Source: a virus
IMG/VR virus record: IMGVR_UViG_3300024999_000114
Span: 1-59,917 of that record
Direction: 5' to 3' (one strand)
DNA length: 59,917 nt
Part shown: positions 2,721-48,227 of the stretch, one piece after another
How positions within the stretch are numbered: position 1 is the first letter of the stretch
Layout: each line of letters opens with the position of its first letter
Made by a program: the position numbers and the translations under genes
Notes under the pieces: model-generated
The model's database searches: none
The model's input: the letters and a program-made list of their open reading frames with translations, nothing else
What the model was told of the DNA's origin: nothing

Positions 2721-3881
2721 CTATGTGAGTTTTTTGGCAATTTCATAAATTACGTTTACGGTACAAGCATCCCCGGCACCGCGATACATTTGCGTATCGC
2801 TTATTCCCGCTTGGATTACTTTATCTGTAATTTCGTCGGGGATTCCCTGGAGTCTCCAACATTCCCTTGGGGTCAGTTTGCGAATTCTGGAGTTCTGCAA
2901 TAAATGATCGTTCTGCTCCCAACTATTCTTAGTTAGGGTTGGAGATATTTCGTGGATTCCTCCCTGATTAAAACCTCTCGCCATCTGAATCATCCCAGTC
3001 CTTTGCCCGTGGTTATCTAACCCTTTGTGGTAGTTAGCGTCAATGCAGTTAGATATATCGGTGAGTTTAAGTTCGTTATGGACTACCACGCACGGAACCT
3101 TGTCCAATCTAGCGGCTTGCAGTGTTCCTGTTTCGTTATAATGAATAGTTGTTGTTGCTCCATGGGTTTTCTGGATCACGATTATCAGAGTTGTCATACC
3201 GCCCGTTGGAGTTCGCAAGCAAGGACTAATTCCCTCAGCATCGTAAACCCTACCTGGTACTGAATTGTTTTTATTTCCGCTTGGCATTAAGTTTCCGAGA
3301 CACTTAATGTTTGCAGTAACCTCTCTGTCTGTACTGACGAGAGGAAATACTTTTCCAGAACTTCTTCCTCTAAGATGTCCAACAACGAACACCCTTTCCC
3401 TATTTTGGGGGACTCCGAAATCTTTGGAATTGAGCAAACTGTATTCAATTCGATCGTAGCCGAGCGAGACCATTTGATCGAGGATTCCGAGAAAATCTCT
3501 TCCCCTGTTTGAAGAAAGCATTCCTTTAACGTTTTCATAGATAAGGTATTTGGGTCGATCTTCTTCCGTGGTTTCCCTGATGAGTCGAAAAACTTCGAGT
3601 ACAAGGGATGACCCTTCTCCTTCCATTCCTGCTCGCTTTCCTGCAATGGAAAAATCTTGGCAGGGTGCCCCAAAGCACCACACATCTGCTCTTGGTATAT
3701 CTCTAGCGTTAGTTGCTCGAATGTCACTACCTTCTGGCTCCTTTCCAAAAATGATTGAGTATATCTTTCGTTTATGCTTGTCCCATTCAACCGAGTAAAC
3801 GCATTCGTGGGATGCTTGCTCCATTCCCATTCTGATTGTGCCAATGCCACAGAATAGGTCGACGAACCTTAGTCCACTCAA
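2721..3881 (-). CDS. dcm: DNA (cytosine-5) methyltransferase
   Basis: 386 residues with the full motif set of C5 methyltransferases. Motif I is VDLFCGIGT (residues 7-15), the SAM site. Motif IV is GAPCQDFS, with catalytic Cys74. Motif VI is YENV (115-118), motif VIII is QNRERVFVV (159-167), and motifs IX-X are LTPRECWRLQG and YRGAGDACTVNVI near the C-terminus. The region between VIII and IX (about 170-320) is the variable target-recognition domain. No cognate endonuclease is visible beside it, so it is probably an orphan phage methylase that protects phage DNA. Confidence 0.95.
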   Translation of the reverse strand: MSGLRFVDLFCGIGTIRMGMEQASHECVYSVEWDKHKRKIYSIIFGKEPEGSDIRATNARDIPRADVWCFGAPCQDFSIAGKRAGMEGEGSSLVLEVFRLIRETTEEDRPKYLIYENVKGMLSSNRGRDFLGILDQMVSLGYDRIEYSLLNSKDFGVPQNRERVFVVGHLRGRSSGKVFPLVSTDREVTANIKCLGNLMPSGNKNNSVPGRVYDAEGISPCLRTPTGGMTTLIIVIQKTHGATTTIHYNETGTLQAARLDKVPCVVVHNELKLTDISNCIDANYHKGLDNHGQRTGMIQMARGFNQGGIHEISPTLTKNSWEQNDHLLQNSRIRKLTPRECWRLQGIPDEITDKVIQAGISDTQMYRGAGDACTVNVIYEIAKKLT

Positions 3882-40850: not shown

Positions 40851-40982
40851 TTATTTAATTTGTTCTGGTAGTTTGAATTTGTCTACCCATGTTTTAGGGT
40901 CAATGGTTAACTCTGTGGGTTTTGTGACCATTACCAACGATTCTGTGTCGAGTCGGTATTCAATTACTAACACTTTAATCAT
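40851..40982 (-). CDS. Small hypothetical protein (43 aa)
   Basis: Starts MIKVLVIEYRLDTESLVMVT. Its ATG overlaps the stop of the terminase C-terminal gene (ATGA), so it is translated by coupling. No known family. Confidence 0.55.
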   Translation of the reverse strand: MIKVLVIEYRLDTESLVMVTKPTELTIDPKTWVDKFKLPEQIK

Positions 40983-42001
40983 CTTCCAATCTTTTTAAGG
41001 ATATATGCCCTCATTTCAGGGGTAGCTCTTTCCAAATCTTCAAGCAAGTCTTCAGGAAGATCGTTCAGGTTTTGCTTCTCTACTATTTGAACAGTAAACC
41101 TCTGTTGTGGTCTTATTTCAGCCGCGATCATATCCGACATTAATAAATCATCATGTTTGCCCGGTGTTGCATCCGGTCGGTTGTTCTTGTCATAGATAAA
41201 GGTTAGGCATTCGCCGAGCATCGTAATGTCGGTGAATAATTCAATGTGTTCCTCAATAAGTGCAATTTCCTTGTCAATGATAAGTGGTCTACTATTCCCA
41301 TCAGTCTTCCATCCGAACTTCTTTTGAATTTCCTTACTGATGCTGTCGTAGGATTGGCGCATGTATTGTTTTGGGTATCTCAGGCGTTCGAGTTCTTCAA
41401 GAGGTGCAGTATTAAAGTTCATTTCAATTCCAATAAGAGCCTCGTTGAAATACTTTCCAAGGCAATAGACCTGATGAGTATATGGTTTAGAATTTGATGA
41501 TTGCATATGAAGTGTGGCGGAACGCTTTCCTGTGATGTTATTTAGGACTGTAGAAGAGTAATAATCTCCCCCTTCTCCTTTTGTGTCTCCACCAATTACA
41601 TATGGATAATCTTTTTGCACATCCTCATAAATGGTAACGAAACCTCGTTCGTCCTCTACCCAATGAATAGAATCATCCTTGATCTTATTTTGAGTATCAG
41701 GATCATCCCATTCAAAAGAAAAACGCCCTCGTTTTGGAGGGTGTTCCTTATAAAGCTTCTTTAGTTCTTCAATCCGCATCTCTACGATTTCATTTGCAAA
41801 TACAGGCCGGCCAGTTGAAAGGAACGCCTCTTTTGGATATGAGGGGTTCTCCTGCTTCATGAGGTTGTGGTCCCCGCCGCAATCGTTCTTTAGTTTCCAA
41901 CGATACCACTTGATTTGACCAAAATCAACTCCATATAGGCTTATTAGACTTTTTTCATAATCATTAAGACTTAATACCTTATTAGCTTCTTCTATATTCA
42001 T
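40979..42001 (-). CDS. terL: Terminase large subunit, C-terminal nuclease half
   Basis: 340 residues from ATG 42001, which overlaps the HNH stop and uses a GGAGGTG inside the HNH gene. It begins mid-protein (LSLNDYEKSLISLYGVDFGQ, then KWYRWKL and PSYPKEAFLSTGRPVF). It carries the RNase-H-type nuclease: VIGGDTKGEGGD, LIGIEMN and GKHDDLLMSDMIAAEI. It lacks the ATPase domain, which is encoded separately at 42495-43370. Confidence 0.88.
   Translation of the reverse strand: MNIEEANKVLSLNDYEKSLISLYGVDFGQIKWYRWKLKNDCGGDHNLMKQENPSYPKEAFLSTGRPVFANEIVEMRIEELKKLYKEHPPKRGRFSFEWDDPDTQNKIKDDSIHWVEDERGFVTIYEDVQKDYPYVIGGDTKGEGGDYYSSTVLNNITGKRSATLHMQSSNSKPYTHQVYCLGKYFNEALIGIEMNFNTAPLEELERLRYPKQYMRQSYDSISKEIQKKFGWKTDGNSRPLIIDKEIALIEEHIELFTDITMLGECLTFIYDKNNRPDATPGKHDDLLMSDMIAAEIRPQQRFTVQIVEKQNLNDLPEDLLEDLERATPEMRAYILKKIGR
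41977..42001. repeat. Direct repeat flanking the HNH insertion in terL, copy 1
   Basis: Contains (minus strand) ATGAATATA, nine bases, then AATAAGG. Copy 2 at 42500-42523 has the same two blocks eight bases apart. The AATAAGG is read in the same frame in both halves of terL. Confidence 0.55.
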
Positions 42002-42489
42002 GGCACGCACCTCCATGAAATGTTTCTCTTTATCCTGCTAACATGGCATTGCTTAATATCGTAATCTTTTGCTATTTCCTTCTGCAATCTATTATCATTT
42101 CTTATCGAAATAATTTGATCGTTAGTTAGTTTTGATTTACCACTTTTTTCCCCAGCTAAGCATGGTGGTCTGTTTCTTTTCTTCTTAATCATATCCATGG
42201 TATTACCCTTCGGAGTATCTACAAATAGGTGTGCAGGATTAATGCACGATTTGTTATCGCATTTATGGCAAACAAACAAGCCTTCCGGTATTTTTCCTTT
42301 ATATTTTTCGTACATGTACCTATGGACTTTAATTATTTTGCCGCCCCTATTCATTTCATGATAACCGCTAGTAACATTAATCCTATGACTATCGCATATC
42401 CAGCAACCATTTTCAGAAACACTCCACGATACCTGCTTGTAGTTATGAGGCTTCCAATTTTCTGCTCTAATGTATTTACCCTTCGGCAT
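41998..42489 (-). CDS. HNH homing endonuclease inserted in terL
   Basis: 163 residues from ATG 42489 (MPKGKYIRAENWKPHNYKQV), RBS AAGGAG lying in the last codons of the upstream terL half. HNH_3 signature: CHKCDNKSCINPAHLFVDTP, then NTMDMIKKKR, and a C-terminal HTH (QKEIAKDYDIKQCHVSRIKR). Its frame differs from terL, so it is not an intein. Confidence 0.92.
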   Translation of the reverse strand: MPKGKYIRAENWKPHNYKQVSWSVSENGCWICDSHRINVTSGYHEMNRGGKIIKVHRYMYEKYKGKIPEGLFVCHKCDNKSCINPAHLFVDTPKGNTMDMIKKKRNRPPCLAGEKSGKSKLTNDQIISIRNDNRLQKEIAKDYDIKQCHVSRIKRNISWRCVP

Positions 42490-42494
42490 GGAAA

Positions 42495-43370
42495 TCACTC
42501 CTTATTGGAATTTATATATTCATTATATACTCTCCATGCCTCATCTTCAATAGCTGTTGTATCAAGCCTATAAAGTTCATAGTCATGCCAAGCGAAGAAC
42601 ATAGGGATAAAGTCATTCTCCCCGGCCTCTGCCTTGTCCCACAAGTCTTTAAAATCGTTCATGCCATTTGCTGTACTCTCTATGATAACAATCGTTCCCG
42701 GTATGTTGGGAACCGACTGAAGTATCCCGGAAAGAGTGGTTGCGGGATTTCCGCCATAGAAGGCGAACTCCGAAAGATGAACGTAGTAATGAGTATCAGA
42801 GCGTCCGATTCCGTCACTGCCAGCAGTTTGAACCTTAATCTTACTATTCAAGCCTTCGCCTTTCCCCTTGTGAGTAGCGGGAAGGTCAAATATAAGTTCA
42901 CGGGCATTAGAAGCTTTCTGTAATGGCTTAATCCGGTCAGGGAGCTTGCTGTACATAAACTTAGCTTTTTCAAAGATGGCATTGGTCGAGTCGTCGCGAT
43001 GGGCAACCACAAGTGCATTTCTGTTCTTATTCTTTGTCAGTCTACAAATCAACTTTCCTTGGGTATATGTGGAAACACCTTCCTGTCTTGCCTTCAATAC
43101 AATGATTCGGGCAGGGATTCCGAGTGTTTCTAGTTCCTTTATTTTATCGTCTATTATTTTCTGGATTGAATTATAGGTTAAGAAAACTTCATTTCCTTTT
43201 TTGTCGATTACCTTGATATAGAAACGACAGAAATCATCATCATTGCGCCTAGCTAATTCGTCCTTAATAGCATCTAACGATGGTAAATCACTCTGCTTTA
43301 TTTTAGGCCTAGCAACTTTAATAGGAGTATCCACGATATCCTTACTCGCCTTTTCCTTCTTGACTACCAT
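42495..43370 (-). CDS. terL: Terminase large subunit, N-terminal ATPase half
   Basis: 291 residues. Walker A variant KARQEGVST (93-101), a HLSEFAFYGG segment in the Walker B position and the coupling motif VIIESTANG. It stops (NSNKE) soon after the ATPase core, at HNH insertion. Large terminases normally carry ATPase and nuclease in one chain of about 600 residues; here they are two. Confidence 0.88.
   Translation of the reverse strand: MVVKKEKASKDIVDTPIKVARPKIKQSDLPSLDAIKDELARRNDDDFCRFYIKVIDKKGNEVFLTYNSIQKIIDDKIKELETLGIPARIIVLKARQEGVSTYTQGKLICRLTKNKNRNALVVAHRDDSTNAIFEKAKFMYSKLPDRIKPLQKASNARELIFDLPATHKGKGEGLNSKIKVQTAGSDGIGRSDTHYYVHLSEFAFYGGNPATTLSGILQSVPNIPGTIVIIESTANGMNDFKDLWDKAEAGENDFIPMFFAWHDYELYRLDTTAIEDEAWRVYNEYINSNKE
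42500..42523. repeat. Direct repeat flanking the HNH insertion in terL, copy 2
   Basis: Second copy of the ATGAATATA/AATAAGG pair, at the end of the N-terminal terL half. Confidence 0.55.
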
Positions 43371-43374
43371 ACTA

Positions 43375-43530
43375 TCACTCCAAAGATACTTGATACGTCA
43401 CCCAGTGTCGCACCCATATTTCTTCCCGGCATTTGTGCTTGCTGTAATTCCATCGTTTGCAGTTTGCGCAATTAACTAGGATACCAGGTTCATTACTTTT
43501 AAATTCGGAGCATGATCTATTTTCGGACAT
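43375..43530 (-). CDS. Small Cys-rich protein
   Basis: 51 residues from ATG 43530 (MSENRSCSEFKSNEPGILVN), RBS AGGAG. CANC and a further Cys (KHKC) suggest zinc binding; ends VRHWVTYQVSLE. Sits between terminase and VUT genes. Confidence 0.5.
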   Translation of the reverse strand: MSENRSCSEFKSNEPGILVNCANCKRWNYSKHKCREEIWVRHWVTYQVSLE

Positions 43531-43584
43531 GGTTTTCACTCCTAGAGATATAAAAATAATCAGCAAGGGCAACGCCGATCTGAA

Positions 43585-44247
43585 CTATTTAGATTGCGTT
43601 CCGCAAGATGGCTCCCACAAAGGGAATTTGTTTTCACTGTTGCACCCAGCCCTATTACACCTAGTCGAAGGATTATAGATTGACATTACGGATAACGGCA
43701 TCCTTTTTCCGCATGTCTCGCAGTTCCTATTTGTTTTTCCTCCGAATCGTTCCAAGTCACCAACTCCGATAAGCTGCATTACCGTTTTAACGATTATTTG
43801 ACCAATTATAGCCATCGGAACTGCTCCCCAAGGTATAAACCCTGCTCCCAATGGAGACAACCCAACCATCACAAATACAGAAGAATCTAAAACACCTGAA
43901 ACCATCCCGCTATAGATAACTCTAAGATGCATCGGTAATCTTAATCTAGTATAAATTTCTGTATCTGTGGTTTCGCTCAATAAAAAACTAACTGCACTAG
44001 CAAGCACAATCCAAAGCGTGTCGCCCAATAATCGGGATGATATTGTGGATAAAATTAATGCCAAAATAATAATTAAATACGTGTTTCTTCTGCCGTGTTT
44101 TTCCTGAACCAAATCCCTTAGGACAAAAGTAGCACCGATTAGAAATGTCCCTAAGGTTATAACAAAAGGCCCTATAATTAATGGTGCGAATGATGCAGTT
44201 AAAACATTAGCGATTATAATTGCCATTAGATAAAGAAATACAATCAA
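43585..44247 (-). CDS. VUT-family transporter, queuosine-precursor type
   Basis: About 220 residues from TTG 44247, whose GGGAGGAG lies inside the dpdA end. At least five membrane helices: an N-terminal ANVLTASFAPL, then GTFLIGATFVLRDLVQEKHG (the family's acidic-basic hallmark loop), SRLLGDTLWIVLAS, SGVLDSSVFVMVGL and WGAVPMAIIGQIIVKTVMQ. This is the YhhQ/QueT-like VUT fold, which imports 7-deazaguanine precursors. A C-terminal tail with CETCGKRM and RCNRAGC is an extra zinc-like module. Confidence 0.85.
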   Translation of the reverse strand: MIVFLYLMAIIIANVLTASFAPLIIGPFVITLGTFLIGATFVLRDLVQEKHGRRNTYLIIILALILSTISSRLLGDTLWIVLASAVSFLLSETTDTEIYTRLRLPMHLRVIYSGMVSGVLDSSVFVMVGLSPLGAGFIPWGAVPMAIIGQIIVKTVMQLIGVGDLERFGGKTNRNCETCGKRMPLSVMSIYNPSTRCNRAGCNSENKFPLWEPSCGTQSK

Positions 44248-44867
44248 GCAAACTCCTCCCAATATTGTTGATTAAGAGTTGCTAATCCCCTTGGAATTAG
44301 CGTATCCGGAAACATGCTAAATCCAGAACCATCCACAGAATTACATCCAATAAGTCTGGCATAATTAATCCTCTTTTTGCTGTTCACCCTACCCATATGC
44401 ACGAACTTACCTCTCAACCGCGCTTCCTTGACAAGTTCCCTAACATAAGCACCAAGTTTGAATTCTGTTGTACCCCCAATAAAAAGTGCCCCAAACTTAG
44501 TCCAATGCACATCGCATTTATCTAATCCATCTTGAGCCACAAGGGATACCGGAAGGTCATACGACTTGATAATAGGCTGCCAATATTCAAACTGCTTTAG
44601 GGTTAGCTCAGCGTTACCAACTACGTCAGGTGCATTTACGAATAGACAACCTTGTTTTCCTTGTATCCTTTTCAAGGTATTTATAAAAGCTTGCTCGTTA
44701 AAACCTGTAAAGCAATCATTGTCCATCGCCCATTTTAGTCCGTAGTCGATGATTATATTTATGTCGTGTCCACCACGGGGAGTTAATAGAAATCCAAGAT
44801 TAGGATTGTCTTTGTATTTTTTAATTGTTTTTGTTGCCCCACTTACCAGAAGTAAGATAGTGTCCAC
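44244..44867 (-). CDS. dpdA: DpdA-family 7-deazaguanine DNA transglycosylase
   Basis: 207 residues from GTG 44867. Its TGT-like barrel motifs are those of phage DpdA: FVNAPDVVG (76-84, base-binding), VAQDG (110-114), FIGGTTEFKL (129-138), HMGRVNS (157-163) and GCNSVDG (174-180), with the Asp as candidate nucleophile. Phage DpdAs exchange guanine in DNA for a 7-deazaguanine, protecting it from restriction. The overlap of its stop with the VUT start (four bases) indicates one salvage unit. Confidence 0.88.
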   Translation of the reverse strand: MDTILLLVSGATKTIKKYKDNPNLGFLLTPRGGHDINIIIDYGLKWAMDNDCFTGFNEQAFINTLKRIQGKQGCLFVNAPDVVGNAELTLKQFEYWQPIIKSYDLPVSLVAQDGLDKCDVHWTKFGALFIGGTTEFKLGAYVRELVKEARLRGKFVHMGRVNSKKRINYARLIGCNSVDGSGFSMFPDTLIPRGLATLNQQYWEEFA

Positions 44868-45018
44868 ATCCCTTGTCTTAAACTAGTCATTAAACCATTA
44901 ATAATACGTTTAGTAATACGCCCGCTAACTCATTGCCTGTCCTTAACGATGGACAAGGTTAAAACGTGATGAAATCAAGGTTTTTATTTAAAAAGAAGGG
45001 GTTAATGGGAAAAAATAA

Positions 45019-45339
45019 TTAAATTACTTTCCTACCAAGTAAATCCAACGCTTGCAAAACAGTTCTAACCGTAACCCTGTCGTAATCCTTTATGTTCTCA
45101 GATAACTCTCCATACGGGTACATATCAGCATGGCACTTAGCACACCATTTATAAAGCTTAGGGTTGTGGTTATCTTCAAACCTATCCTTGGCTTCTCTAT
45201 GCGATTGTAAGTATCCAACATGTTCCTCGCTGACACATTCACTCGGAGAATGAAATCCTTGGTTTTTCTTTTCTCTCCACCATGCATCATGCACTTTCTC
45301 GCTTAACTGATCGATAAGATTGTTTGTATTTGAATCCAT
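45019..45339 (-). CDS. RyR-domain protein
   Basis: About 106 residues from ATG 45339 (MDSNTNNLIDQLSEKVHDAW), behind AAAGGAG. The body fits the small RyR domain: ALLEKVHDAWWREKKNQG-like head, then PKLYKW, PYGELSENIKDYDRVTVR and TVLQALDLLG. In bacteria and phages RyR-domain proteins are linked to nucleotide or signal binding, with no settled function. It lies upstream of dpdA. Confidence 0.8.
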   Translation of the reverse strand: MDSNTNNLIDQLSEKVHDAWWREKKNQGFHSPSECVSEEHVGYLQSHREAKDRFEDNHNPKLYKWCAKCHADMYPYGELSENIKDYDRVTVRTVLQALDLLGRKVI

Positions 45340-45385
45340 TGGTTTTACATCTCCTTTAATTATTAACATTAAAAATGAGGTAAAT

Positions 45386-46057
45386 TTACCTCAACCCTAT
45401 TTTCTGCATAGCTTCGTCAATTCTACTAAGCCCGTGCTTCCACTCTTTTATTTTCTGAATAACATGCTCGTCCGGCCTAAACCATTCTCCCTTTAATCTC
45501 GATGCTTCAAATTCCTTATGCACCTGTCTCTCTGTGGACTCGTTTCCAGGAACCATAAAAAGAATTGTGAGAGTGTCGGGGTATCCAGTTTGCAATGCTC
45601 TCAATCTCTTCACCGGGTCTACTGAAAATCCTATCTTAATAGCTCCTCCGCACAGGCCCTGAATAAAGTAAACATAGCCCTTCGGGTCAACAGGGAGAAT
45701 AGTTAGTACGTCATTTTCAATTACTGCATCCGGTTTCGCTACCGACATCATGTCTATTTCTTTTCTAATTCGCAAAGCCTTTATTGCTTCATTCTTCTTG
45801 TTCCAGTATTCAGTCCATCTTGGGTCGTCTTTTCTCCACGACCATTTATTGATTTCGTTTTCCAAGATGCTCATGAATCTTCGGTCATACTTAAAGGCGT
45901 TTAACTTATCTTGGCTTCTCCAAATACTAAAACTAATTCCCTTTTCCGCATGACCATCATTCTCTAGCTTTTTCAGAAAATCCTTAATCTTAGCATCCAT
46001 TGGAATACCTAATACACCAAGGAATGCTTGGGCATAGGTTGTGACTCTATTAGACAT
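45386..46057 (-). CDS. T5orf172/GIY-YIG-like nuclease
   Basis: From ATG 46057 (MSNRVTTYAQAFLGVLGIPM), behind GGGGGAC. N-terminal ~130 residues form a separate helical domain. A C-terminal T5orf172/Mug113 domain follows, from GYVYFIQGLCGGAIKIGFSV, then KRLRALQTGYPDTLTILFMV, ERQVHKEFEASRLKGEWFRP. Mobile-nuclease or regulatory function likely. Confidence 0.75.
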   Translation of the reverse strand: MSNRVTTYAQAFLGVLGIPMDAKIKDFLKKLENDGHAEKGISFSIWRSQDKLNAFKYDRRFMSILENEINKWSWRKDDPRWTEYWNKKNEAIKALRIRKEIDMMSVAKPDAVIENDVLTILPVDPKGYVYFIQGLCGGAIKIGFSVDPVKRLRALQTGYPDTLTILFMVPGNESTERQVHKEFEASRLKGEWFRPDEHVIQKIKEWKHGLSRIDEAMQKIGLR

Positions 46058-46058
46058 A

Positions 46059-46598
46059 TCAATTGTCCCCCACTTCATTCATTTTTCCTTTTTTAATTAA
46101 ACGCGATGAAATAACATAACCGCCATCAGTTGAATAAAGGAGTTCGTGTTCCTTCATGTCACCCAATAGGCGGTTTAATTTCTTATTGCCACATCCAAAT
46201 ATTGCTTGAAGCTCTTTATAATTCAGGGGATTCTTATTTCGCGTCTGAATTAATCTCCCTGTGTTCCACTCAACGTATTTACCCAAAGAAACTAAGTACC
46301 CTGCCAATTCCTCGACATTCTTAACTCCACCCTTCTTCAGCTTCTCAATCTCTTCAACCATGAGCATGATATAAGGTTTCTTCCCTCCGGTGTGCTTCGG
46401 AGGGTCTTTATCTTTTTTGGCAGGTTTATTGAGTTTACTCCACCAACTATCAACCACAAGTTCTTCTTCACCATTAGGCATCTTCAATGTCATAAAGTTT
46501 GTTCCATTTGGCGACTTCTCACGAATAAGATACGAACCGGGAGGAAGGGGTAAAATATCAGACGTTTCATTGTAAAAATCAACTATCTTTTTATCCAT
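46059..46598 (-). CDS. Winged-helix protein, RepL-like
   Basis: From ATG 46598 (MDKKIVDFYNETSDILPLPP), behind GAGGTGG. Central PNGEEELVVDSWWSK, then helical GGKKPYIMLMVEEIEKLKKG and a winged HTH end (LNYKELQAIFGCGNKKLNRL, SRLIKKG). The tail matches RepL-like plasmid replication or regulatory proteins. Its long leader is full of hairpins. Confidence 0.6.
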   Translation of the reverse strand: MDKKIVDFYNETSDILPLPPGSYLIREKSPNGTNFMTLKMPNGEEELVVDSWWSKLNKPAKKDKDPPKHTGGKKPYIMLMVEEIEKLKKGGVKNVEELAGYLVSLGKYVEWNTGRLIQTRNKNPLNYKELQAIFGCGNKKLNRLLGDMKEHELLYSTDGGYVISSRLIKKGKMNEVGDN

Positions 46599-46621
46599 AT
46601 TAACCACCTCAAAAGCCCTTT

Positions 46622-46800
46622 CAATGGGCATTACTTAGGTGTCGAAACGACACGTTGTAAAAATGGCACTCAGCCTTACTCTCCCTAAGCGTGTAGGGTT
46701 TTTTGCATGTAATTCGTTTATATATACGTTCTAGCTTTGTTTCGTTCTACATTAACGCAACGCCAAAAACCCCTCATAACATATATAAGGGGTGGGTAGT
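46622..46800. promoter_or_regulatory. Structured leader with opposed terminators
   Basis: Minus strand: GCCC-ATTGAAA-GGGC then TTTT just before the ribosome binding site; hairpin GTGTCG-AAA-CGACAC (46639-46653); and ACCCCT...AGGGGT followed by TTTTT at about 46765-46794. Plus strand: CCCTA-AGCGTG-TAGGG-TTTTTT (46683-46706). A plus-strand terminator without a plus-strand gene hints at an antisense transcript. Confidence 0.45.
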
Positions 46801-46840
46801 TTTATTTAAGTACCTAGTGAGTTATTTGGGGTACAGGGGG

Positions 46841-47002
46841 CTATGAACGAGTTAGAAGCTCTTCTGTATCTGCTATTAACTTATCTCTGAATTCTTTTGT
46901 CATAACATAACATTCTCCAATTCCAACTTGATATGTTGTAGTAGCTCTTTCAAATGCTGAGGATAATGAGGTTATGAATTCCCTAATGTCTTCATCCATC
47001 AT
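46841..47002 (-). CDS. Small hypothetical protein (53 aa)
   Basis: Starts MMDEDIREFITSLSSAFERA; acidic helical, no motif. AAAGGAG sits in a CTTTC-CGC-GAAAG hairpin, so initiation may be controlled. Confidence 0.55.
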   Translation of the reverse strand: MMDEDIREFITSLSSAFERATTTYQVGIGECYVMTKEFRDKLIADTEELLTRS

Positions 47003-47662
47003 CAAGACTCCTTTCGCGGAAAGTTTTTTATTTTTTGTAATTTTTTATTTTTATTTTTTTTGTAGAATACTTAGCTGTCTATTGAGGATATGTAGTATAT
47101 ACCCCGGTACTTCCACCAAGCCCTATCTCGTGCCACCTCTGACGAGGGGGTGGAGGTATTCTCGGACATCGCACATCATGAAGATAGCCACTGCTTACGG
47201 GTACAGTAGTCGAAACCTTTGTAGGCGACAGACTGTAAGTAAATCGCATGTAAATCATGTTTAGTTAGCTATAGAGATATATACACAGATCACCCCTTTA
47301 CCCGGCTCACAGCTCGTGCCCAGGGGGAGGGTCGAAATCTCAATATTCAGCATCCCCATCACTACCCGGATCAGCACAGCAACCATGTCACATCAGAGCC
47401 AGACAGCAGAGAAAGAGCATAAGCCAAAGTAGCACAGCACAGCCGATGCCAGCCAGCCAAGACAACAGCCATCACCCGGCAAGCTATCAGCACTACGCCA
47501 CAAACCATATTAGCACATTATAATGATACTCATTCACTTTGTGACACATTCGCCAAAACCCTACATCCCTACTCTCCCAATGGTTTCAGCGATTTACTCA
47601 TTATCAGTGATTTCATTATCATTTAGGATGCCACTCTAATTGAGAATAGCATACATAATATG
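47003..47662. other. Long intergenic region next to terS
   Basis: No convincing gene. The right part (about 47350-47530) is rich in CAGC/CCAGCC/CACAGC and poor in G and T on the plus strand; the left part has an A-rich run (minus) and a CCACC/GGTGG foldback near 47138-47158. Packaging-site candidate, since phage pac sites often lie in or beside terS, but no direct proof. Confidence 0.35.
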
Positions 47663-48214
47663 TTAATCTTTAGGCTCAATATCGACGATCTCACCCTGGA
47701 TCTGTGCTCTCTCCATTATCTCAGCCATGAGCCGCAAATCCTCATCCGAGTAGGCAGAGACAGCCTGGATGAGGAGAGGGCCACCGTTTGGGCCTGTATA
47801 CTCCACAGACTGAGTGTCTTTCCATCCCTTGAAGTTGTTTGTTAGGCTGAATTTAGCACCGTTAACACCATCACGGTCGAAGAGTCTGGCCTCTGTATAT
47901 TCTTCGATCCGGGCCTTAGCTATCAAGATAGTGTCCATGAATTCTTCTTTATCTGTATAATTCAGCAATGTCATCCTACTTGTAAACCCTAAAGCTAATG
48001 CCAGCCCTGTCACTGTAGGAGGTTTACTAACTATCACTGGTTGACCATGCTTATCATAAATAGGTGTTCCGTATTCATCCTTCAGTATCTCGCCCTGGCA
48101 TTTATCGAAATACTTATCTATAATAAGCTGCATTTCCTCAACCGACTTATATCTTGGCTGCCTACCACTTGTAGCACATCCCAACGCATATTGATTACCA
48201 ACCGCAGCAGCCAT
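47663..48214 (-). CDS. terS: Terminase small subunit
   Basis: 183 residues from ATG 48214 (MAAAVGNQYALGCATSGRQP). Helical N-terminal DNA-binding part with VEEMQLIIDKYFDKCQGEIL, PPTVTGLALALGFTSRMTLL (HTH) and a VNGAKFSLTNNFKGWKDTQS end typical of Bacillota-phage TerS. It lies 4.3 kb from terL, unusually far, with DpdA and others between. Confidence 0.78.
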   Translation of the reverse strand: MAAAVGNQYALGCATSGRQPRYKSVEEMQLIIDKYFDKCQGEILKDEYGTPIYDKHGQPVIVSKPPTVTGLALALGFTSRMTLLNYTDKEEFMDTILIAKARIEEYTEARLFDRDGVNGAKFSLTNNFKGWKDTQSVEYTGPNGGPLLIQAVSAYSDEDLRLMAEIMERAQIQGEIVDIEPKD

Positions 48215-48227
48215 ACTAATCACCTCC

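Follow-up and report, generated by a model that had tools for sequence, protein, structure and literature searches.

A short DpdA-like transglycosylase gene coupled to a VUT-type transporter gene: a probable salvage cassette for 7-deazaguanine modification of phage DNA

The field has yet to settle where DpdA phages that lack synthesis genes obtain their base. For DpdA-only phages (group 3), host supply of preQ0 or its uptake has been proposed, and YhhQ homologues were noted in some phages, uncorrelated with any group (Hutinet 2019, PMC6884629); the uptake concept for such phages is already published. Other DpdA phages make the base themselves. E. coli phage 9g and Seuratvirus combine a long DpdA (PHROG_887) with a full synthesis pathway, and the annotated preQ0 transporter carried by Seurat-like phages supplements synthesis rather than replacing it. 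The 9g DpdA alone inserts dPreQ0 (PMC6884629). In Streptococcus phage Dp-1, whose DNA is modified with preQ1 (dPreQ1) (PMC6884629), a QueT transporter gene (orf6) overlaps the gene for a long canonical DpdA (orf7), and a DUF165-type membrane gene (orf72) and preQ0 synthesis genes are present as well. ReqiPine5 (gp04-gp03) pairs a VUT transporter with a short DpdA, coupled or nearly so and near TerL, and Arthrobacter phage Aoka (gp38-39-40) has the same two genes with a QueF-like gene between them.

The virus studied here (IMG/VR record IMGVR_UViG_3300024999_000114), whose 59,917 nucleotides were analysed as a whole and are called the window below, resembles the group 3 phages in having a DpdA without preQ0 synthesis genes. 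It shares a transporter gene overlapping the DpdA gene with Dp-1 and a DpdA transglycosylase with 9g and Seuratvirus, but its DpdA is of the short form and its transporter belongs to a family other than QueT. ReqiPine5 and Aoka encode both protein types, although in the order VUT then DpdA, with a VUT that has no Cys-rich tail and with about 31-44% identity to the window proteins. An earlier note, made from the sequence alone, had placed the pair inside the packaging operon, and the open reading frames of the window bear this out: dpdA and VUT sit between TerS and the TerL pieces, all on the minus strand. The features of the locus are as follows.

44244..44867, minus strand: dpdA, short form, predicted 207-aa DpdA-like DNA transglycosylase; GTG start; PHROG_15826, E 9e-53
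43585..44247, minus strand: predicted VUT/YhhQ (QPTR)-type transporter of 220 aa; begins with a TTG that overlaps the dpdA stop; PF02592, E 1.6e-15
44262, minus strand: alternative TTG start of VUT, giving 225 aa
44244..44247, minus strand: TTGA overlap in the sequence, VUT start TTG (44247-44245) and dpdA stop TGA (44246-44244)
44253..44260, minus strand: GGGAGGAG, Shine-Dalgarno sequence of VUT, within the dpdA 3' end
43588..43737, minus strand: Cys-rich C-terminal VUT tail, CETC-x17-CNRAGC; AlphaFold (AF2) pLDDT about 50
43375..43572, minus strand: small Cys-containing ORF between VUT and TerL, without a family match and not clearly part of the system
47663-48223, minus strand: TerS
42495-43370 and 40979-42016, minus strand: TerL, in two pieces

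The translational coupling proposed in the earlier note stands, with a different start codon. A strong Shine-Dalgarno sequence inside the end of the upstream gene, together with a TTGA overlap, is the usual mark of such coupling. Here the junction reads GGGAGGAG-TTTGC-TTGA, and the TTG at 44247, 5 nt after GGGAGGAG, is a likelier start than the TTG at 44262. Coupling from this start, which shares the TTGA, would be tighter than first described. The GTG of dpdA is the sole in-frame start downstream of a TAG, and homologous N-termini fit it; the Shine-Dalgarno-like AAGGG in front of it lies nearer to the start than is ideal. Upstream of dpdA, neither a search at Rfam gathering level nor a permissive scan of 44840-45110 found a preQ1 or other riboswitch. 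No tRNA genes were found. Directly upstream of dpdA lies a gene for a RyR-domain protein (45019-45369, minus strand; PF02026, E 2e-8).

The transporter passes Pfam Vut_1 (PF02592) with 58.3 bits against a cut-off of 27.2. With NCBIfam TIGR00697, 'queuosine precursor transporter', it scores 45.6 bits (E 7e-12), under the equivalog cut-off of 50.95, and we therefore treat it as a divergent Vut_1 member whose substrate is not assignable from the name. Of the label it had first been given, 'YhhQ/QueT-like', only the first half fits: Vut_1 and TIGR00697 were the only profiles matched, whereas QueT represents a different transporter family and the QueT/QrtT (ECF-type) profile gave no match. ThiT/RibU-like folds occur among its PDB structure matches, at a level that is not significant. 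The AF2 model has five long helices, with pLDDT about 90 up to residue 170, and the signature residues R49, D50 and D126 (225-aa numbering) are intact. The extra Cys-rich tail described earlier is real, with five cysteines after residue 170 and zero before, and lineage-specific: it occurs in this phage and on contigs that carry an identical pair, and in no other VUT seen; the nearest relative (L007, 44%) ends in an unrelated tail. A family function for the tail was considered and dropped, as it matches no profile, is not conserved and is modelled at low pLDDT.

The 207-aa protein matches a phage family of about 200 aa whose cultured-phage members are mostly labelled 'DpdA-like tRNA-guanine transglycosylase'. 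Pfam gives no match for it or for any of 67 relatives, the TGT family (PF01702) being hit by 0 of the 68 short-family members at E<=0.01, and a sequence search found no relative in the PDB. We compared 66 short members with eight long phage DpdAs, including the characterised enzymes of 9g and Dp-1, using hhalign, and obtained a match over 89 columns (E 1e-5, Prob 82) that pairs D49, D81, Q112 and GG of the short form (207-aa numbering here and below) with D72, D114, H141 and GG of 9g. Beyond this block, and by eye only, VHMGRVNSKKR...SVDG of the short form resembles KVHGFGITSRPLMER...SCDSS of 9g, pairing D179, whose region falls outside the hhalign block, with SCDSS. Fifteen columns are invariant in the 66 short sequences, among them D49, D81, Q112, G131, H157 and D179. 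The same comparison with bacterial TGTs was not significant, though with an alignment of three TGT sequences it is weak either way, and the long DpdAs likewise fail it.

Structure prediction, which the earlier note had proposed for both proteins, gave a TIM barrel for the short DpdA (AF2, pLDDT 95.2). TGTs are among the PDB structures that Foldseek matched to this model (TM about 0.55), not above other TIM barrels, and so the PDB matches by themselves do not pick out TGT; in a search of viral models, queuine tRNA-ribosyltransferases of phages are among the best named matches. The hhalign match, the TIM barrel and the physical linkage to 7-deazaguanine genes carry the assignment beyond its inherited label, and together they support the short enzyme as a distant relative of DpdA. 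The window has no canonical DpdA (phrog_887), and only two of 47 records combine it with the short form, both of which also have QueC, indicating that the short DpdA is normally the sole transglycosylase.

To see how often the pair recurs, we scanned IMG/VR three times with short-DpdA profiles, obtaining 206 usable loci that fall into 113 clusters (DpdA at 80% identity), in which VUT, QueC and QueE were scored within the fetched DNA. VUT is present in 64 of the 113 clusters, always on the same strand as DpdA, within 100 bp in 56 of them and within 756 bp in all. QueC or QueE is present in 13 clusters, none of which has VUT as well (Fisher p 7e-6, phylogeny ignored), and 36 clusters have neither VUT nor synthesis genes, which means that the transporter is not required. 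Pfam searches of 47 whole records agree: QueC was found in six, QueD in five and Vut_1 in 23, two of these scoring below the curated cut-off, and no record combines VUT with QueC or with QueD. Several QueC/QueD phages have the short form as their only DpdA. Five clusters have a QueF-like gene; VUT is present in each of them, and in the loci read the QueF-like gene is flanked by VUT and DpdA. These genes match TIGR03139 below its cut-off (E 2e-8 to 3e-7). In the reverse direction, short DpdA adjoins VUT in 35 of 41 loci fetched by a VUT profile, a figure biased upward because the profile covers an actinophage-type subset seeded from DpdA-linked VUTs.

On the DpdA tree, the states VUT, synthesis and neither switch about 25 times; they are clustered relative to shuffles and far from a single origin. 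A phylogeny-aware test of VUT against synthesis genes found five supported independent pairs and none contrary, too few for significance. Within the DpdA subclade to which the window belongs, VUT is missing from most relatives. Comparative genomics strongly favours a functional DpdA-VUT pair, and its recurrence in divergent phages, never together with QueC or QueE, suggests that such phages scavenge their base. Whereas YhhQ homologues were uncorrelated with any group in the published survey (PMC6884629), among short DpdAs VUT adjoins the DpdA gene in 64 of 113 clusters and is mutually exclusive with QueC/QueE. This tight linkage looks new, as do the form with QueF and the way in which VUT and synthesis genes exclude each other; we did not find them in the papers available.

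The earlier note had reported no preQ0-synthesis genes (queC/D/E/F) in the window. Profile searches agree, finding none of QueC, QueD, QueF and FolE, nor QueE by a family-built profile. The window appears to be an incomplete (linear) record. Its relative G001 (64,923 bp) has a 126-bp terminal repeat, and for this reason is probably complete; it aligns to the window in permuted order, with several kb of G001 uncovered at the window's ends. QueC, QueD, QueF, FolE and QueE are missing from G001 too, so their absence from the window is not merely truncation, although G001 is a related genome rather than this one. The portal protein of the window phage matches only uncultured human-gut phage records. 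Its gene for a C5-cytosine DNA methyltransferase (2721-3881, minus strand; PF00145, E 4.5e-69) is possibly a second one for DNA protection, and C5-methyltransferase-like genes also occur just upstream of DpdA in three other loci (L008, L010, L011).

We consider it likely that dpdA and VUT form a salvage-type cassette for 7-deazaguanine DNA modification, in which the transporter would import a preQ0- or preQ1-like base for the short DpdA. The phage-encoded importer would be placed in the host membrane and would take up a preformed queuosine-type base, in all likelihood preQ0 or preQ1, from outside the cell, so increasing its amount in the cytoplasm. The short DpdA, as a minimal TGT-type TIM barrel with an Asp nucleophile, would then swap guanine in phage DNA for the imported base, and translational coupling would yield the two products together. 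Since the window phage has no QueF, the imported base itself would be expected in its DNA, as dPreQ0 or dPreQ1. The modified base may hide phage DNA from restriction or other nucleases.

The main competing possibility, to which we give a smaller but appreciable chance, is that the DNA is modified with a base drawn mainly from the host queuosine pathway, the transporter topping up or recapturing the pool or importing queuine. Host supply must often be enough, as the 36 clusters with DpdA and neither VUT nor synthesis genes attest, and the transporter may thus only raise supply; QPTR members also vary in substrate, which is preQ0/preQ1 in E. coli and queuine in Chlamydia (PMC11130926). The strict exclusion between VUT and QueC/QueE, however, implies that the transporter replaces synthesis, and the QueF-like genes in some VUT cassettes point to preQ0 import in those phages. 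A substrate other than DNA is unlikely for the short DpdA, whether tRNA, with the enzyme serving as a minimal TGT, or the N-terminus of a protein. The latter is known from Cap10 of type IV CBASS, described as a member of the TGT family that acts on protein (PMC11996544), and a canonical DpdA accompanies a short one near DNA polymerase in E. coli phage phiG7 and in Vibrio phage R29Z, where the short form could have another job. Yet a protein of about 200 aa is too short to include the Zn/PUA parts of tRNA TGTs, the CxCxxC...H site is missing from the window protein sequence, neither Cap9 nor a nucleotidyltransferase was seen as a partner, the profile affinity is toward DNA-acting phage DpdAs rather than bacterial TGT, and in several QueC/QueD phages no other DpdA is available.

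Two further explanations seem still less plausible. The pair might be a mobile moron that has no modification role in this phage and came to lie near TerL by chance or transfer. It is identical in the window and G001 (0 mismatches), within a block (43276-47797) about 99% identical between the two, whereas in the adjoining TerL region their nucleotide sequences are unrelated; this sharp mosaic boundary on the TerL side indicates that the block was exchanged by recombination. Against a passenger without function, the catalytic-type residues of DpdA and the VUT signature residues are intact, and coupling and linkage recur in divergent phages. Least probable in our view is that the TIM barrel belongs to another enzyme class that co-occurs with VUT by chance. 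Foldseek does place barrels of pyruvate kinase, EAL and DHPS first in the PDB, and a Pfam TGT match is absent, but the hhalign match to DpdA, the DpdA-like order of motifs and the best named viral fold matches all speak for a transglycosylase, as does the linkage of the family both to que synthesis genes and to a queuosine-precursor-type transporter.

For phages that have DpdA and no synthesis genes, a coupled importer as the salvage cassette's second gene is a concrete and testable answer to the question of the base source. An importer in place of synthesis genes predicts that protection of a phage can depend on the supply of queuosine precursors, and the two genes of the pair offer a compact tool with which to write 7-deazaguanines into DNA. 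We lean, if only slightly, toward a broader reading in which a portable salvage cassette (a minimal DpdA of about 200 aa coupled to VUT, with or without QueF) has repeatedly been exchanged with a QueC/D/E version, so that the chemistry of virion DNA would hang on a scavenged micronutrient.

Several other observations concern short-DpdA genes outside the window. Escherichia phages phiG7 (gp20/gp21; L261:7881-8473) and SHIN8 have a short DpdA split in two overlapping ORFs beside DNA polymerase, together with a canonical DpdA and the full pathway, and in Vibrio phage R29Z the short copy that accompanies the canonical DpdA is intact. One phage contig carries three consecutive short-DpdA ORFs (L054:1-3352), and the same record holds two QueC genes. 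Long open frames run on the opposite strand over short-DpdA genes (L010:9583-10536, L036:9304-10533 and others), one cluster of them spanning 77 loci, which is probably an effect of composition and codon use.

In the window itself, TerL (40979-43370, minus strand) is interrupted by the ORF of an HNH endonuclease (41998-42498; PF13392), which overlaps each of the two pieces. An intron of group I or another known type was considered as the cause and rejected: Rfam gives no match, and a typical intron would be longer than this insert. At the same place, G001 has one intact, highly divergent TerL ORF of about 540 aa.
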